Origin: Halorarum halophilum
GTDB lineage: Archaea > Halobacteriota > Halobacteria > Halobacteriales > Haloferacaceae
DNA: 64,000 bases
Reading direction: 5' to 3'
NCBI RefSeq assembly: GCF_013401515.1
Contig: NZ_CP058529.1
Coordinates: 868,001 to 932,000 of the forward strand
The notes under the pieces were generated by a model. It worked only from the letters and a program-made list of their open reading frames with translations, made no database searches and had not been told where the DNA came from. Numbering within the stretch: position 1 is the stretch's first letter; every line of letters begins with the position of its first letter. The translations under genes were made by a program, and so were the position numbers. This document shows positions 54,164 to 57,892 of the stretch, one piece after another.

Positions 54164-55012
54164 TCACTCCTCGGGTCGAAGCCGGATCGCGATGCCGTCG
54201 GGGTCCGCGATCTCCACGCCGTCGTCGAGTTCCGCGACTGAACCGCCGCTCGCCTCCACGCGTTCCGCGACGGCGGCGACGGCGTCCCCGTCGGGGAGAA
54301 TCAGTTCGAACCACTCTAGTCCCCGTCCGGCCGCCGGCGTCGAGCGCTGGTGCCACGTGTTGACGGCGACGTGGTGGTGGTAGCCGCCAGCCGAGAGGAA
54401 CAGCGCCGACGGCGCGAGGTCGGTCGTCACGTCGAAGCCGAGCGTCCCGGCGTAGAACTCCCGTGCGGCTTCCGTCGAGGAGACCTCGAGGTGGACGTGT
54501 CCGACGGTCGTACCGGCCGGTGCCCCGGTTCCGCCGATCGCGTCCGTCGCGAGGGCGTCGAGGTCGAGGGGGTCCGACATCCCGCGCAGCCGGCCGTCCT
54601 CACGGAACGGCCAGTCCTCGCGCGGTCGGTCGCGGTAGATCTCGACGCCGTTCCCCTCCGGATCCGCGAGGTAGAGCGCCTCGCTGAAGCCGTGGTCCGA
54701 CGCCCCGTCGAGGTGCCAGTGGTTCCGAATCCGGGCCAGGGCGTCGCCGAGCGCGCCACGGGTGGGAACCCTGAACGCGTTGTGGTAGAGGCCCGTGGCG
54801 GACTCGTCGCGTTCGGGTGCGTCCGCGTCCGCCTCCAGGACGAGGAGCGGCGTCCCGTCGACGCCGAGCGTCGCGGTCGTCCGCTCCCGCGTCAGGACCG
54901 CCAGCCCGACGACGCGCTGGTAGAACGCCGTCGTGCCAGCGAGGTCGGCGACGTGAAGCACGGTCCGGCCGACGCGCGTCGACTCCGGGAGAGGTTCGGT
55001 AGCTCCGGACAT
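54164..55012 (-). CDS. Two-domain VOC (glyoxalase/dioxygenase) protein
   Basis: The 282-aa protein contains two vicinal-oxygen-chelate domains: TVLHVADLAGTTAFYQRVVG at the N-terminus and VGHVHLEVSSTEAAREFYAG in the middle. ADPEGNGVEIY and ADPDGIAIRL are the usual domain ends. This layout is that of CatE-type catechol 2,3-dioxygenase-like proteins. Metal ligands are likely the His/Glu residues of these segments. Substrate unknown. Next to the AstE-like gene on the same strand, 46 bp downstream of it. Confidence 0.85.
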   Translation of the reverse strand: MSGATEPLPESTRVGRTVLHVADLAGTTAFYQRVVGLAVLTRERTTATLGVDGTPLLVLEADADAPERDESATGLYHNAFRVPTRGALGDALARIRNHWHLDGASDHGFSEALYLADPEGNGVEIYRDRPREDWPFREDGRLRGMSDPLDLDALATDAIGGTGAPAGTTVGHVHLEVSSTEAAREFYAGTLGFDVTTDLAPSALFLSAGGYHHHVAVNTWHQRSTPAAGRGLEWFELILPDGDAVAAVAERVEASGGSVAELDDGVEIADPDGIAIRLRPEE

Positions 55013-55058: not shown

Positions 55059-56084
55059 TCAGGTCTCGCCGACGCCGTTGGGCGACTGCTCCCGTTCGAC
55101 GACCCGCCTGGTCCGCTCGTCCAGTTCGACGAGGTGACACAGCGGGTTCCCGGGGTAGACGACCGGGTTCTCGAGCACGCCGACGAGCAGCCCCGTGAAC
55201 GGCGCCTCGACCGGGACGTTGTCGTCCTTGAACGGGTTGGTGATGGTGCAGACGATGTCGCCCTCGTGGACGAGCGCGCCGTGGTCGAAGTGCATGTGCA
55301 CGATGCCGCCGGCGTCCGCCCGGAGCCAGGTCTTCTCCTTCGAGTTGGTGATGACGGTGCGCCAGCCGGGCCAGCGCACGGCGTCCCCCAGTTCGAGCCC
55401 GAACTCGGTGAAGACGCTCAGCACGCCCTCCAGCGCCTCGTCGATGAGCGGTCGCTGGAAGCGGTGGGCCTCGCCCATCTCCACGGTGATCGTCGGCGTG
55501 TCCACGGCGGACGCCTCGACCCGCAGCATGCCCGACCCACCCTCGCTGTCGATGACGACGTTGGTCCCGAACGCGCGGGCGACGCGGGCCACCGCGGGGT
55601 CCGACATGTCCGCCCGGACGTGGAGCATGTTGGTCCGTCCCCTGGTCGAGGTGTGGAAGTCCAGCCCCAGATCGCACGGCTCGATGAAGTTCCGGAAGAT
55701 GCGGTCGGCCATCCGCTTTGCGCTCGTCGAGCCGGGCGACCCCGGGAACGATCGGTTCAGGTCGCGGTCGTACACCGGCAGGTAGCGCTGCTGGGCGAGG
55801 AACGCCGGGACGTTCAGCACGGGGAGACAGATGATCGTCCCCGCGAGGTCCGAGAGGTCCCACTCGTGGGCCACCTCGCGGACGACCTCGATGCCGTTGA
55901 GTTCGTCGCCGTGGGCGGCCGCCGAGAGGAACGCCGTCGGCCCGTCCCGTTCACCGTTCACCACGGTAACGGGGATGCGGACCGGGTCGCCGAGGTAGGT
56001 CTCGCTCACCACGAACCGGAGGTTCTCGCGCTCGCCGGGCGCGACAGTTCCCCCATCGTAGGTGAACGCCCCGTCGTCGTTCAT
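55059..56084 (-). CDS. Succinylglutamate desuccinylase/aspartoacylase family hydrolase
   Basis: The 341-aa zinc carboxypeptidase-fold protein has the metal site AAAHGDELNG (H58, E61) and a third ligand in LGLDFHTSTRGR (H144), with YDRDLNRSFPG as the substrate-binding loop. AstE/AspA relatives remove acyl groups from amino acids. It is divergent from the RimK-RimB fusion gene, with TATA boxes for both genes in the 166-bp gap (for this gene, CCTTATACGG about 25 bp upstream). The pairing suggests joined action on an N-acyl or glutamyl compound, which is an inference. Confidence 0.88.
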   Translation of the reverse strand: MNDDGAFTYDGGTVAPGERENLRFVVSETYLGDPVRIPVTVVNGERDGPTAFLSAAAHGDELNGIEVVREVAHEWDLSDLAGTIICLPVLNVPAFLAQQRYLPVYDRDLNRSFPGSPGSTSAKRMADRIFRNFIEPCDLGLDFHTSTRGRTNMLHVRADMSDPAVARVARAFGTNVVIDSEGGSGMLRVEASAVDTPTITVEMGEAHRFQRPLIDEALEGVLSVFTEFGLELGDAVRWPGWRTVITNSKEKTWLRADAGGIVHMHFDHGALVHEGDIVCTITNPFKDDNVPVEAPFTGLLVGVLENPVVYPGNPLCHLVELDERTRRVVEREQSPNGVGET

Positions 56085-56250
56085 ACCCGAGCGTGGGGGT
56101 CGACCCGTATAAGGTTGCGCGGAACGATATCATCGCTGATTCCGGGACGCCCCGGTCAGCGGCCCCGAAGCAGTCCTGACAGCGCCCGAAAACGTCACAG
56201 GCGGCCACGAGGACCGGGAGAACTTTACTCGCGCCGTGGCACGAATCGGT

Positions 56251-57612
56251 ATGAACGAGGATCCGGTTCGCGTGGGCGTGCTCGCGCTCCACACGAGCAA
56301 GGAGTCGAAGGCGATCTGCAACGCCGTGGAGGACCTGGGGCACGACCCCGAGTGGTTGCGCGAGGAGAACGCGTCGGTCAGCATCGAGGAGGGGGAGGTG
56401 AAGATCGAGCCGGACGTCGACGTGATCGCCAACCGGATGCTGCTCTCGAACACGCCGGAGCCCGCAGAGGGCCTGGGGCTTGCGGGAACGTTCGCGCAGG
56501 CGCGGCCGACTCTCAACCCGCCGGAAGCGGTGCTCACGGCCGTCCACAAGTTCGCAACCGCCGTCGCGCTCTCGGAGGCGGGCATCCGCGTTCCCGACGC
56601 GCTCCTTGCGCTCTCGAACGCCGGCCTGAACGAGGGCCGGAGCCGCTTCACGCCCGAGGGAGTCTACAAGACGGCCATCGGCACCCACGGCGGCGGCACC
56701 TGGAAACTGGACCTCCGGGAGCCGGTGAACCCGATGGTCGGCAACCGGCAGGCGTTCCTCCAGGAGCTCATCGACCGCGACGAGGTGCGCCACCACGACC
56801 AGCGGGTGTACGTCGTCGACGGCGAGATCGTCGGCGCGATGAACCGCTACGCGCCAGACGACGACTGGCGGACGAACGTCGCGCTCGGCGGCGACGTCGA
56901 GGACGCGACCGACAGCCTCGACGATGAGGCGAAAGAACTAGCGATCGCGGCCGCAGAGACGATCGGACTGGACTACGCCGGCGTCGACCTCGTGCAGGGG
57001 TTCGACGGCTGGTACGTCCTCGAGGTCAACCCGACGGCGGGGTTCAAGGGACTGTTCAAGGCGACGGGCCGTTCGCCCGCCCCGTACATCGCCAAACTCG
57101 CCATCGAGCGCGCCGGGGGAACCGTGGACGACGACCGCGTGGCGGAACTCGCCACTGTCCTCGACGACTCAGTCCCTTCGTGCATGCCGAGGGGGTCCCA
57201 GCAACGGCCCAAGGACACGCCGCTGATCGGGTACATCGAGGAGGTCGTCGTCGCGGGCACCCGCGGCTCGACGCAGTCGTTCGCGAAGTCGGACACGGGC
57301 GCGACGCGCTCCTCGATCGACACGGAACTCGCAGCCGAGATCGGCGCCGGCCCCATCAAGAGCATGACCCGCGTGAAGTCCGGGAGCATGAAGCGCGGCA
57401 AGGCGCGGCCGGTCGTCGACCTCGTCGTCGGCATCGGCGGCGACCAGCACACCGTCACCGCGAGCGTCGAGGACCGCTCGCACATGGAGTACCCGCTGTT
57501 GCTCGGCCGGGACATCCTCGAGCACTACCAGGTCGACGTGAGGCGGCGCGCCGACGAGACTGTCAGCCAGGAACGCGACGAGGAGGAGGAGGAGGAGTCG
57601 GGCGAGGAGTGA
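56251..57612 (+). CDS. RimK-like ATP-grasp ligase fused to a RimB-like retropepsin-fold protease domain
   Basis: The 453-aa protein has an N-terminal RimK-type ATP-grasp module: about residues 5-295, ATP-contact Lys about 140, and LEVNPTAGF at 257-265 with the metal-binding Glu and Asn. A C-terminal domain (about 322-432) has the protease-like motif SDTGATRSSIDT (347-358) and YPLLLGRDIL (414-423). The latter resembles RimB/aspartyl-type zinc proteases. In bacteria RimK and RimB are separate proteins acting on ribosomal S6 glutamylation; here they are one polypeptide. The ATG at 56251 follows an AACTTTACTC promoter-like box by about 25 bp. Target unknown. Confidence 0.85.
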   Translation: MNEDPVRVGVLALHTSKESKAICNAVEDLGHDPEWLREENASVSIEEGEVKIEPDVDVIANRMLLSNTPEPAEGLGLAGTFAQARPTLNPPEAVLTAVHKFATAVALSEAGIRVPDALLALSNAGLNEGRSRFTPEGVYKTAIGTHGGGTWKLDLREPVNPMVGNRQAFLQELIDRDEVRHHDQRVYVVDGEIVGAMNRYAPDDDWRTNVALGGDVEDATDSLDDEAKELAIAAAETIGLDYAGVDLVQGFDGWYVLEVNPTAGFKGLFKATGRSPAPYIAKLAIERAGGTVDDDRVAELATVLDDSVPSCMPRGSQQRPKDTPLIGYIEEVVVAGTRGSTQSFAKSDTGATRSSIDTELAAEIGAGPIKSMTRVKSGSMKRGKARPVVDLVVGIGGDQHTVTASVEDRSHMEYPLLLGRDILEHYQVDVRRRADETVSQERDEEEEEESGEE

Positions 57613-57685: not shown

Positions 57686-57892
57686 ATGGGCTTTGGTAGC
57701 TACGACGAATCCGAGCAGGAACGGCAACAGTCCAACGAGGGACCCGGGGACGAGGCGACCGTCGACGCACACGAGAACGAGCACGAGGGCGAGATGACGT
57801 TCGACAGCGGTGCCTCGACCGACGACCTCGTCTCCCGGCTGCAGGAGATGAAGGACGACCCCGACGAGGACGACGACGAGGACGACGCGTAG
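57686..57892 (+). CDS. DUF5786 family protein
   Basis: The 68-aa acidic protein begins MGFGSYDESEQERQ, the sequence mark of DUF5786, a haloarchaeal-only family. The C-terminus is almost purely Asp/Glu. No cofactor motif. A stand-alone small protein of unknown role between the RimK fusion and the glycosylase. Confidence 0.85.
   Translation: MGFGSYDESEQERQQSNEGPGDEATVDAHENEHEGEMTFDSGASTDDLVSRLQEMKDDPDEDDDEDDA

Follow-up and report, generated by a model that had tools for sequence, protein, structure and literature searches.

A haloarchaeal RimK-RimB fusion divergent from an AstE-like hydrolase: a candidate polyglutamate cycle

What do a glutamate ligase and a protease fused in a single archaeal chain do, and why do they face a hydrolase? 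In Halorarum halophilum a gene that joins a RimK-type ligase to a RimB-type retropepsin (RimKB) lies back to back with a gene for an AstE-like protein, in a 64,000-nucleotide stretch of contig NZ_CP058529.1 (positions 868,001 to 932,000 of the forward strand), hereafter the window, whose coordinates are used throughout. An earlier note on this DNA saw in the arrangement a sign of a reversible modification, one enzyme adding and the others removing. We find that the locus is a real, conserved haloarchaeal variant of RimK-RimB, in which the order of the fused domains is reversed and a third, AstE-like partner, itself recurrent across domains of life, is present. With evenly balanced confidence we read it as a polyglutamate cycle of haloarchaea, with RimK as the enzyme that adds residues, RimB as the one that cuts them back and the AstE-like enzyme as the one that finishes.

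The fusion described in the earlier note is borne out, with its catalytic motifs intact. PF08443 (RimK) matches residues 164-273 of RimKB with 82.8 bits (Pfam cut-off 21), the RimK-family model TIGR00768 scores 141.4 bits, narrowly under its curated cut-off of 143.4, and the domain matches the PDB entries 5zct, 4iwx and 3vpd. PF05618 (Zn_protease, the RimB family) matches residues 370-433 with 37.9 bits (cut-off 27). Modelled alone by AlphaFold2, residues 317-453 have a retropepsin fold (mean pLDDT 83.3, pTM 0.72), the best PDB matches of which are RloA2, RloA and Lpg0085, followed by the retroviral-protease-like domains of Ddi1. The catalytic D348-T349-G350 is invariant in 59 of 59 haloarchaeal RimKB proteins, the window protein included, and the ATP-grasp catalytic residues are identical in the same set. 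In the alignment with bacterial RimB, the haloarchaeal domain (57292-57555) is about 20-25 residues shorter after the catalytic loop. The poly-glutamate contacts of Pseudomonas aeruginosa RimK (S7, R8, S14, R64, S68, R189 and N262), taken from PubMed Central (PMC) article PMC10092738, were mapped by eye via an alignment (articles given by PMC number, here and below, are cited from excerpts, except where the text as a whole is named). In P. aeruginosa numbering, R64, S68, R189 and N262 are invariant in all 59 proteins, S7 is retained in 55, and the S14 position is Ser in 11 and Thr in 48. Since ATG 56251, like the AstE-like start, is preceded by a TATA-like element at a distance of about 25 nucleotides (nt), the chain likely begins there and not at the mechanically called GTG 56236; such a TATA spacing and leaderless transcription are haloarchaeal features.

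The divergent gene, whose start lies 166 bp from that of RimKB, is indeed AstE-like at the level of the superfamily. AstE_AspA_cat (PF24827) matches its product with 160.4 bits (cut-off 25, E 5e-47), and H58, E61, H144 and E202 are near-invariant across 63 aligned sequences and invariant in an alignment of 45. The AlphaFold2 model (pLDDT 91.0) is nearest to DoeB (6twm, TM 0.80), followed by CphZ (8ein, TM 0.73), true AstE and ASPA (both about 0.5) and the carboxypeptidase CCP5 (0.45). All curated models score below their cut-offs: DoeB 107.2 against 402.7, AstE 18.6 against 305.65 and aspartoacylase 33.4 against 180. Hence, of the metal-dependent deacylase proposed earlier, the fold and the conserved residues stand, whereas the name 'deacylase' is a fold-level label only, as the scores lie far under the curated AstE and DoeB cut-offs.

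The earlier note let its reading depend on the two genes being linked elsewhere, and they are. Among 292 Halobacteria genomes (E<=1e-40, the same draw for both proteins), RimKB is present in 268 (71 of 77 genera); for the AstE-like protein the figure is 273 (72 of 77 genera). The crossed lists give 268 genomes with both, 19 with neither, five with the AstE-like protein alone and none with RimKB alone; these are counts of genomes and not of independent events. Gene order was read in 60 haloarchaeal stretches of at most 20 kb, mostly one or two per genus among the genomes with listed coordinates; linkage is favoured in the eight that were centred on the AstE-like gene (L084-L091; L numbers denote stretches and G numbers genomes) and in L047, the limits of which were chosen to include the pair. 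Full-length RimKB occurs in 58 stretches (L089 has none and L091 a remnant), and 52 of these also hold the AstE-like gene, which in the other six (L045, L053, L056, L057, L058 and L092) lies elsewhere in the genome. The genes are divergent in 50 of the 52 stretches, with a start-to-start gap of 80-256 bp in 33 of the 52, and in the remaining two they are on the same strand, kilobases apart. This divergent arrangement is far beyond chance.

The manner in which the genes disappear is asymmetric. The Sdh genes, which often share the block, were located in the 24 RimKB-negative genomes (four of which, G236, G253, G269 and G286, were identified by elimination), and the flank was read in 20 of them; G021, G218 and G286 were left out and the remaining genome, G184, is the one represented by stretch L091. 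Judged by family and genus labels, without a tree, we estimate about ten separate losses. G110 and G168 retain an intact AstE-like gene next to what is left of RimKB (residues 2-66 in the former and 16-56 in the latter), and G184 likewise has an intact AstE-like gene and a short RimKB remnant. These three are the strong matches among the five AstE-like-only genomes; the weak ones in G018 and G218 (about 4e-41) are probably paralogues. In G114 a remnant of AstE (residues 262-332) is left and RimKB is gone, and in G018 SdhC runs directly into the genes for HhH-GPD and HADH, both genes of the pair having been cleanly excised. The other 16 of the 20 flanks show no trace of RimKB or the AstE-like gene in the stretch read, which in G236 stops early at a contig end. 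RimKB seems to have been lost first and the AstE-like gene after it, an order that fits an AstE-like enzyme dependent on the RimKB product.

The three functions also meet outside Halobacteria. The nearest non-haloarchaeal plasmid relatives of the AstE-like protein adjoin rimK in six of the six loci opened, as read by annotation in five and by translation in Photobacterium (L107). With K, A and B standing for RimK, AstE and RimB, the gene order is K-A-B in Vibrio nigripulchritudo, B-K-A in Salinivibrio, Acaryochloris and Phaeobacter, and K-A in Photobacterium. When five plasmid AstE proteins were used as queries against genome contigs, both RimK and RimB were found within 3.5 kb of 50 of the best 80 of at least 483 relatives, RimK only near ten and RimB only near two. 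The triad-bearing phyla are many and include cyanobacteria, planctomycetes and actinobacteria; the methanogen Methanolobus profundi (L171) has the order B-K-A. No RimK-RimB fusion occurs among the best 80 loci, and a candidate K-B fusion in Vibrio campbellii H14 was rejected, as its translation gives two same-frame open reading frames (ORFs) split by a stop. Within the phylum of the window, PF05618 matched 40 of 148 genomes. In 20 of them, which belong to the same order as the window, the matching open frames span 459 to 1068 amino acids (aa); in the other 20 they span 104-305 aa, which leaves no room for a fusion. In one non-halobacterial family of this phylum, RimB, RimK and AstE are encoded consecutively in ten of ten opened loci, and the RimK of this family shares 74-77% identity with the bacterial queries, whereas the haloarchaeal RimK domain is only 24-28% identical to triad RimKs, both bacterial and methanogen. 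The window holds the same three-function module, with a fusion and a divergent gene in place of separate genes. Our searches of the open-licence PMC literature, judged in part by titles, gave no description of an AstE-like partner of RimK or RimB, and the words 'AstE' and 'desuccinyl(ase)' are absent from the text of the RimK/RimB papers checked. A 2009 comparative-genomics paper on amidoligases by Iyer and colleagues is said possibly to describe RimK-protease neighbourhoods already.

A further feature, the C-terminus of RimKB, is a new and testable element. Leaving the window protein aside, 58 RimKB proteins have a hypervariable, acidic stretch of 8-25 residues at the C-terminus that nevertheless closes with Glu in 56 and with Glu-Glu in 47; the two that lack the final Glu, L061 (...SK) and L074 (...TAQ), have these endings after a Glu run. 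The frequency of Glu is 0.97 at position -1, 0.81 at -2 and 0.38-0.53 between -3 and -8, and it is under 0.1 from -13 onwards. Of 835 other ORFs called in 80 stretches, Glu is the last residue in 125 and Glu-Glu the last pair in 14 (ORFs were called by an acidity-based heuristic of our own, but the C-terminal residues are independent of the choice of start). Control ORFs with at least five Asp or Glu in the last ten residues (n=50) end in Glu in 15 cases and in Glu-Glu in six, and comparable RimKB tails (n=50) in 48 and 39 (Fisher p 1.6e-12 and 2.0e-11, respectively, ignoring relatedness). The eight RimKB proteins with less acidic tails all end in Glu-Glu. For the AstE-like neighbour a final Glu is seen in six of 54 cases and Glu-Glu in none, and the separate proteins of the best 80 loci end in Glu in one of 60 (RimK), nine of 52 (RimB) and two of 78 (AstE) cases, and in Glu-Glu in none of 60, three of 52 and one of 78. 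Five plasmid copies of RimKB (L108, L111, L112, L113 and L115) end in Glu-Glu, and L114 has a longer, different C-terminus. In one of the five, a Natrononativus paralogue (L113:4001-5308), the DTG motif is destroyed and the protein still ends in RLEE; universal stress proteins are annotated near it.

The polyglutamate cycle was built on the domains, the catalytic and poly-glutamate contact residues, the co-occurrence, the asymmetric loss and the triad elsewhere. In bacteria, RimK adds Glu processively to the C-terminus of RpsF, and the retropepsin RimB cleaves runs of at least five to six Glu and stimulates poly-glutamate synthesis (PMC11957791); about four Glu remain after trimming by RimB (PMC10092738). 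If the haloarchaeal domains behave like these characterised relatives, the RimK domain would ligate L-glutamate residues singly onto an acceptor with a C-terminal Glu, and the RimB domain, as a dimer, would trim chains above a few residues. The AstE-like hydrolase might then break down the short oligo-glutamate or residual Glu left by RimB, a finishing role proposed by analogy to CphZ in the CphA/CphB/CphZ cycle, where CphZ finishes the breakdown of cyanophycin (PMC12661447). The add-and-remove logic of the earlier note is therefore in agreement with the published biochemistry of RimK and RimB as separate proteins (PMC11957791, PMC10092738) and with the conserved catalytic residues as far as ligase and protease are concerned, whereas removal by the AstE-like enzyme is conjectural. 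The acceptor and the physiological role are likewise presumptive. If the cycle is real, polyglutamylation of proteins or peptides with an on-board eraser would be near-universal in Halobacteria (268 of 292 genomes) and apparently unstudied there: our searches of the open-licence PMC literature gave, judged by titles, no relevant work on RimK or protein glutamylation in haloarchaea.

The bacterial acceptor is missing. No protein of the H. halophilum genome matches bS6 (PF01250), whereas 11 of 14 control genomes do have a match, and RimKB scores far under the cut-off of the strict S6-modification model (57.8 against 331, NF007764). Therefore another acceptor is needed, and the most economical candidate is the C-terminus of RimKB itself. 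Tentatively, and with well under even confidence, we suggest that RimKB, with no need of another protein as substrate, primes on its own Glu-Glu, that its own retropepsin sheds the chain, thus releasing free poly- or oligo-alpha-glutamate (or leaving a dynamic sensor tail), and that the AstE-like enzyme recycles the oligomers. Self-priming would explain the persistence of the system in archaea without bS6, the presence of Glu-Glu in 47 of 58 fusions as compared with none of 60 RimK and three of 52 RimB proteins, and why RimKB never occurs without the AstE-like gene (0 of 268 genomes). Auto-modification has been proposed for CDC123, which belongs to another ATP-grasp clade (PMC4431377). An alternative acceptor is possible in three stretches. 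An ORF in L033, L034 and L091 that we take to resemble a proteasome alpha subunit also ends in Glu-Glu after a variable acidic tail.

Several observations weigh against the cycle and its self-priming form. The RimBK hybrid of Desulfotalea did not glutamylate RpsF (PMC11957791), the contact R8 is replaced by Leu in 56 of the 59 haloarchaeal RimKB proteins, and the model of the coenzyme ligase MptN outscores that of the S6 ligase on RimKB (113.9 versus 57.8 bits). Neither RimK nor RimB lies within 3.5 kb of 18 of the 80 AstE-like loci, several of which are near contig ends, so the AstE-like family can work elsewhere too. In the 60 haloarchaeal stretches the Sdh and HADH genes belong to the conserved block as well, which makes gene order and proximity alone weak evidence. 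Finally, the tail signal could be regulatory and not catalytic. This last point leads to the strongest competitor, a fairly unlikely one in our estimation, in which RimKB modifies the C-terminus of one particular archaeal protein, ribosomal or other, and its own Glu-Glu tail is a regulatory pseudo-substrate at the RimK or RimB site. It follows the precedent of Pseudomonas, where a ribosomal protein is regulated by RimK and RimB (PMC11957791, PMC10092738). RimB-family proteases favour poly-glutamate (PMC12239564) and the tail is Glu-rich, and its conservation fits inhibition as well as priming. However, bS6 is absent, no archaeal target emerged in this analysis, and the DTG-less paralogue L113 retains its RLEE, which a pseudo-substrate of RimB only would not need (a single case).

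The MptN score raises another, improbable explanation, namely that the ligase, in the manner of MptN and CofF, glutamylates a small molecule (a coenzyme such as F420, folate or a pterin), with the retropepsin and the AstE-like enzyme adjusting or recycling the side chain. MptN is the top curated equivalog (113.9), followed by LysX (90.3) and S6 RimK, yet these scores and that of CofF (57.2) are far under the cut-offs (350 for MptN and 300 for CofF), one would not expect a peptide-cutting retropepsin to partner a ligase of coenzyme side chains, and cyanobacteria, planctomycetes and actinobacteria have the triad too. The same protease has no role in an N-acylated dipeptide osmolyte pathway, which we regard as very improbable, in which RimK would couple an N-acyl amino acid with Glu and the acyl group would later be taken off by the AstE-like enzyme. 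Such a pathway would account for a fold closest to DoeB, an N-acetyl-diaminobutyrate deacetylase, and for MscS, MgtE or CorA near 18 of the 80 AstE-like loci, and mammals have a comparable pair in a RimK-like NAAG synthase and aspartoacylase; on the other side, the DoeB cut-off is missed widely, and no acyltransferase is found among the conserved neighbours looked for, although no search was aimed at acyltransferases. Adjacency by mere inheritance of a large gene block, with no functional link, is largely refuted and hardly credible. Sdh, HhH-GPD and HADH are indeed often in the block, but both genes are kept where they are unlinked (six of 58 RimKB stretches), stand together on Halolamina and Halorarius plasmids, are lost together, and are separate neighbouring genes in other phyla.

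The features of the locus are collected in Table 1. On the side of the Sdh genes the AstE-like gene adjoins a gene for a two-domain glyoxalase-fold protein (54164-55012, minus strand), and 73 bp downstream of RimKB lies a gene for a small acidic DUF5786 protein (57686-57892, plus strand; PF19099, 79.3 bits). The latter was considered as a conserved glutamylation target and rejected, because tblastn at 1e-8 finds DUF5786 near RimKB in only four of the 60 stretches (L033, L034, L056 and L091), although its short length may hide copies. Farther afield, 18 of the 80 AstE-like loci (L118-L197) have a homologue of MscS, MgtE or CorA at a distance of at most about 6 kb, the identity being confirmed by Pfam for one representative each. 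Antisense ORFs of the triad genes caused clutter in the clustering of neighbours, from which only these three are reported; they hint at ionic or osmotic balance. On plasmids, the pair is divergent in Halolamina and Halorarius, and no annotated AstE-like gene lies within 4 kb of the plasmid RimKB of Haladaptatus, Salinirubellus and Natrononativus. Many haloarchaeal plasmids encode an AstE-like relative with 45-58% identity to the window protein. A plasmid of Natrinema thermotolerans (L116:3983-4357) encodes a stand-alone RimB-like domain of 124 aa, annotated as 'glutaminyl transferase', with no RimK annotated beside it. In viral contigs there were seven pattern matches, none of them related to RimKB.

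Table 1. Coordinates of the RimKB and AstE-like locus in the window.
Feature	Coordinates	Strand	Basis
AstE/DoeB-fold zinc hydrolase, 341 aa	55059-56084	-	PF24827, AlphaFold2 model
Divergent intergenic region, 166 bp	56085..56250	.	A TATA-like element some 25 nt ahead of each start; putative function
RimK-RimB fused protein RimKB, 453 aa	56251..57612	+	ORF and Pfam domain matches
RimK-type ATP-grasp alpha-L-glutamate ligase domain, about residues 1-290	56251..57120	+	PF08443, TIGR00768, PDB
RimB-type retropepsin-like domain, about residues 317-435	57199..57555	+	PF05618, AlphaFold2 model
Catalytic Asp-Thr-Gly, residues 348-350	57292..57300	+	Invariant in 59/59 haloarchaeal RimKB
Hypervariable acidic tail ending Glu-Glu, residues 436-453, and stop	57556..57612	+	Tails of relatives

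How does the polyglutamate cycle proposed here compare with known systems? It shares with the Pseudomonas RimABK system, which polyglutamylates RpsF, an alpha-L-glutamate ligase and a retropepsin-like protease that trims Glu chains. Unlike the haloarchaeal locus, RimABK consists of separate proteins, targets bS6 and, in the published accounts consulted, has the phosphodiesterase RimA in place of an AstE-like partner. The closest architectural parallel is the RimBK hybrid of Desulfotalea psychrophila (DP2392), which likewise has RimK and RimB in one chain and whose RimB part cleaves polyglutamylated RpsF (PMC11957791). However, RimB is N-terminal in DP2392 and C-terminal in RimKB, which therefore falls outside the RimBK class; the survey of that class covers 5959 bacterial accessions, and the word 'archaea' does not occur in the text as a whole (PMC11957791). 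A RimB-like retropepsin and an ATP-grasp protein are also found together in the system encoded by the RloA/RloB/RloC operon of P. aeruginosa, which cleaves Glu-rich sequences and has an osmotic phenotype, but there, according to the excerpts of PMC12239564, the protease is secreted, the partner is an inactive transglutaminase and an AstE-like enzyme is missing. With the DoeB/EutE and AstE/ASPA family the AstE-like protein shares the fold and the conserved H..E..H and Glu, whereas its context is RimK-RimB and not ectoine or arginine catabolism. In two domains of life the module connects a known bacterial system for modifying ribosomes with a zinc hydrolase that is still uncharacterised. In its proposed logic it resembles the CphA/CphB/CphZ cycle. 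The polymer and the protease are different there, and the AstE-like protein is only 16-17% identical to CphZ; in both, however, a ligase, which in the case of CphA is also an ATP-grasp enzyme, builds (or, for RimKB, would build) an amino-acid polymer, a protease cuts it and an AstE-fold enzyme hydrolyses what is left, which in the cyanophycin cycle is a dipeptide.

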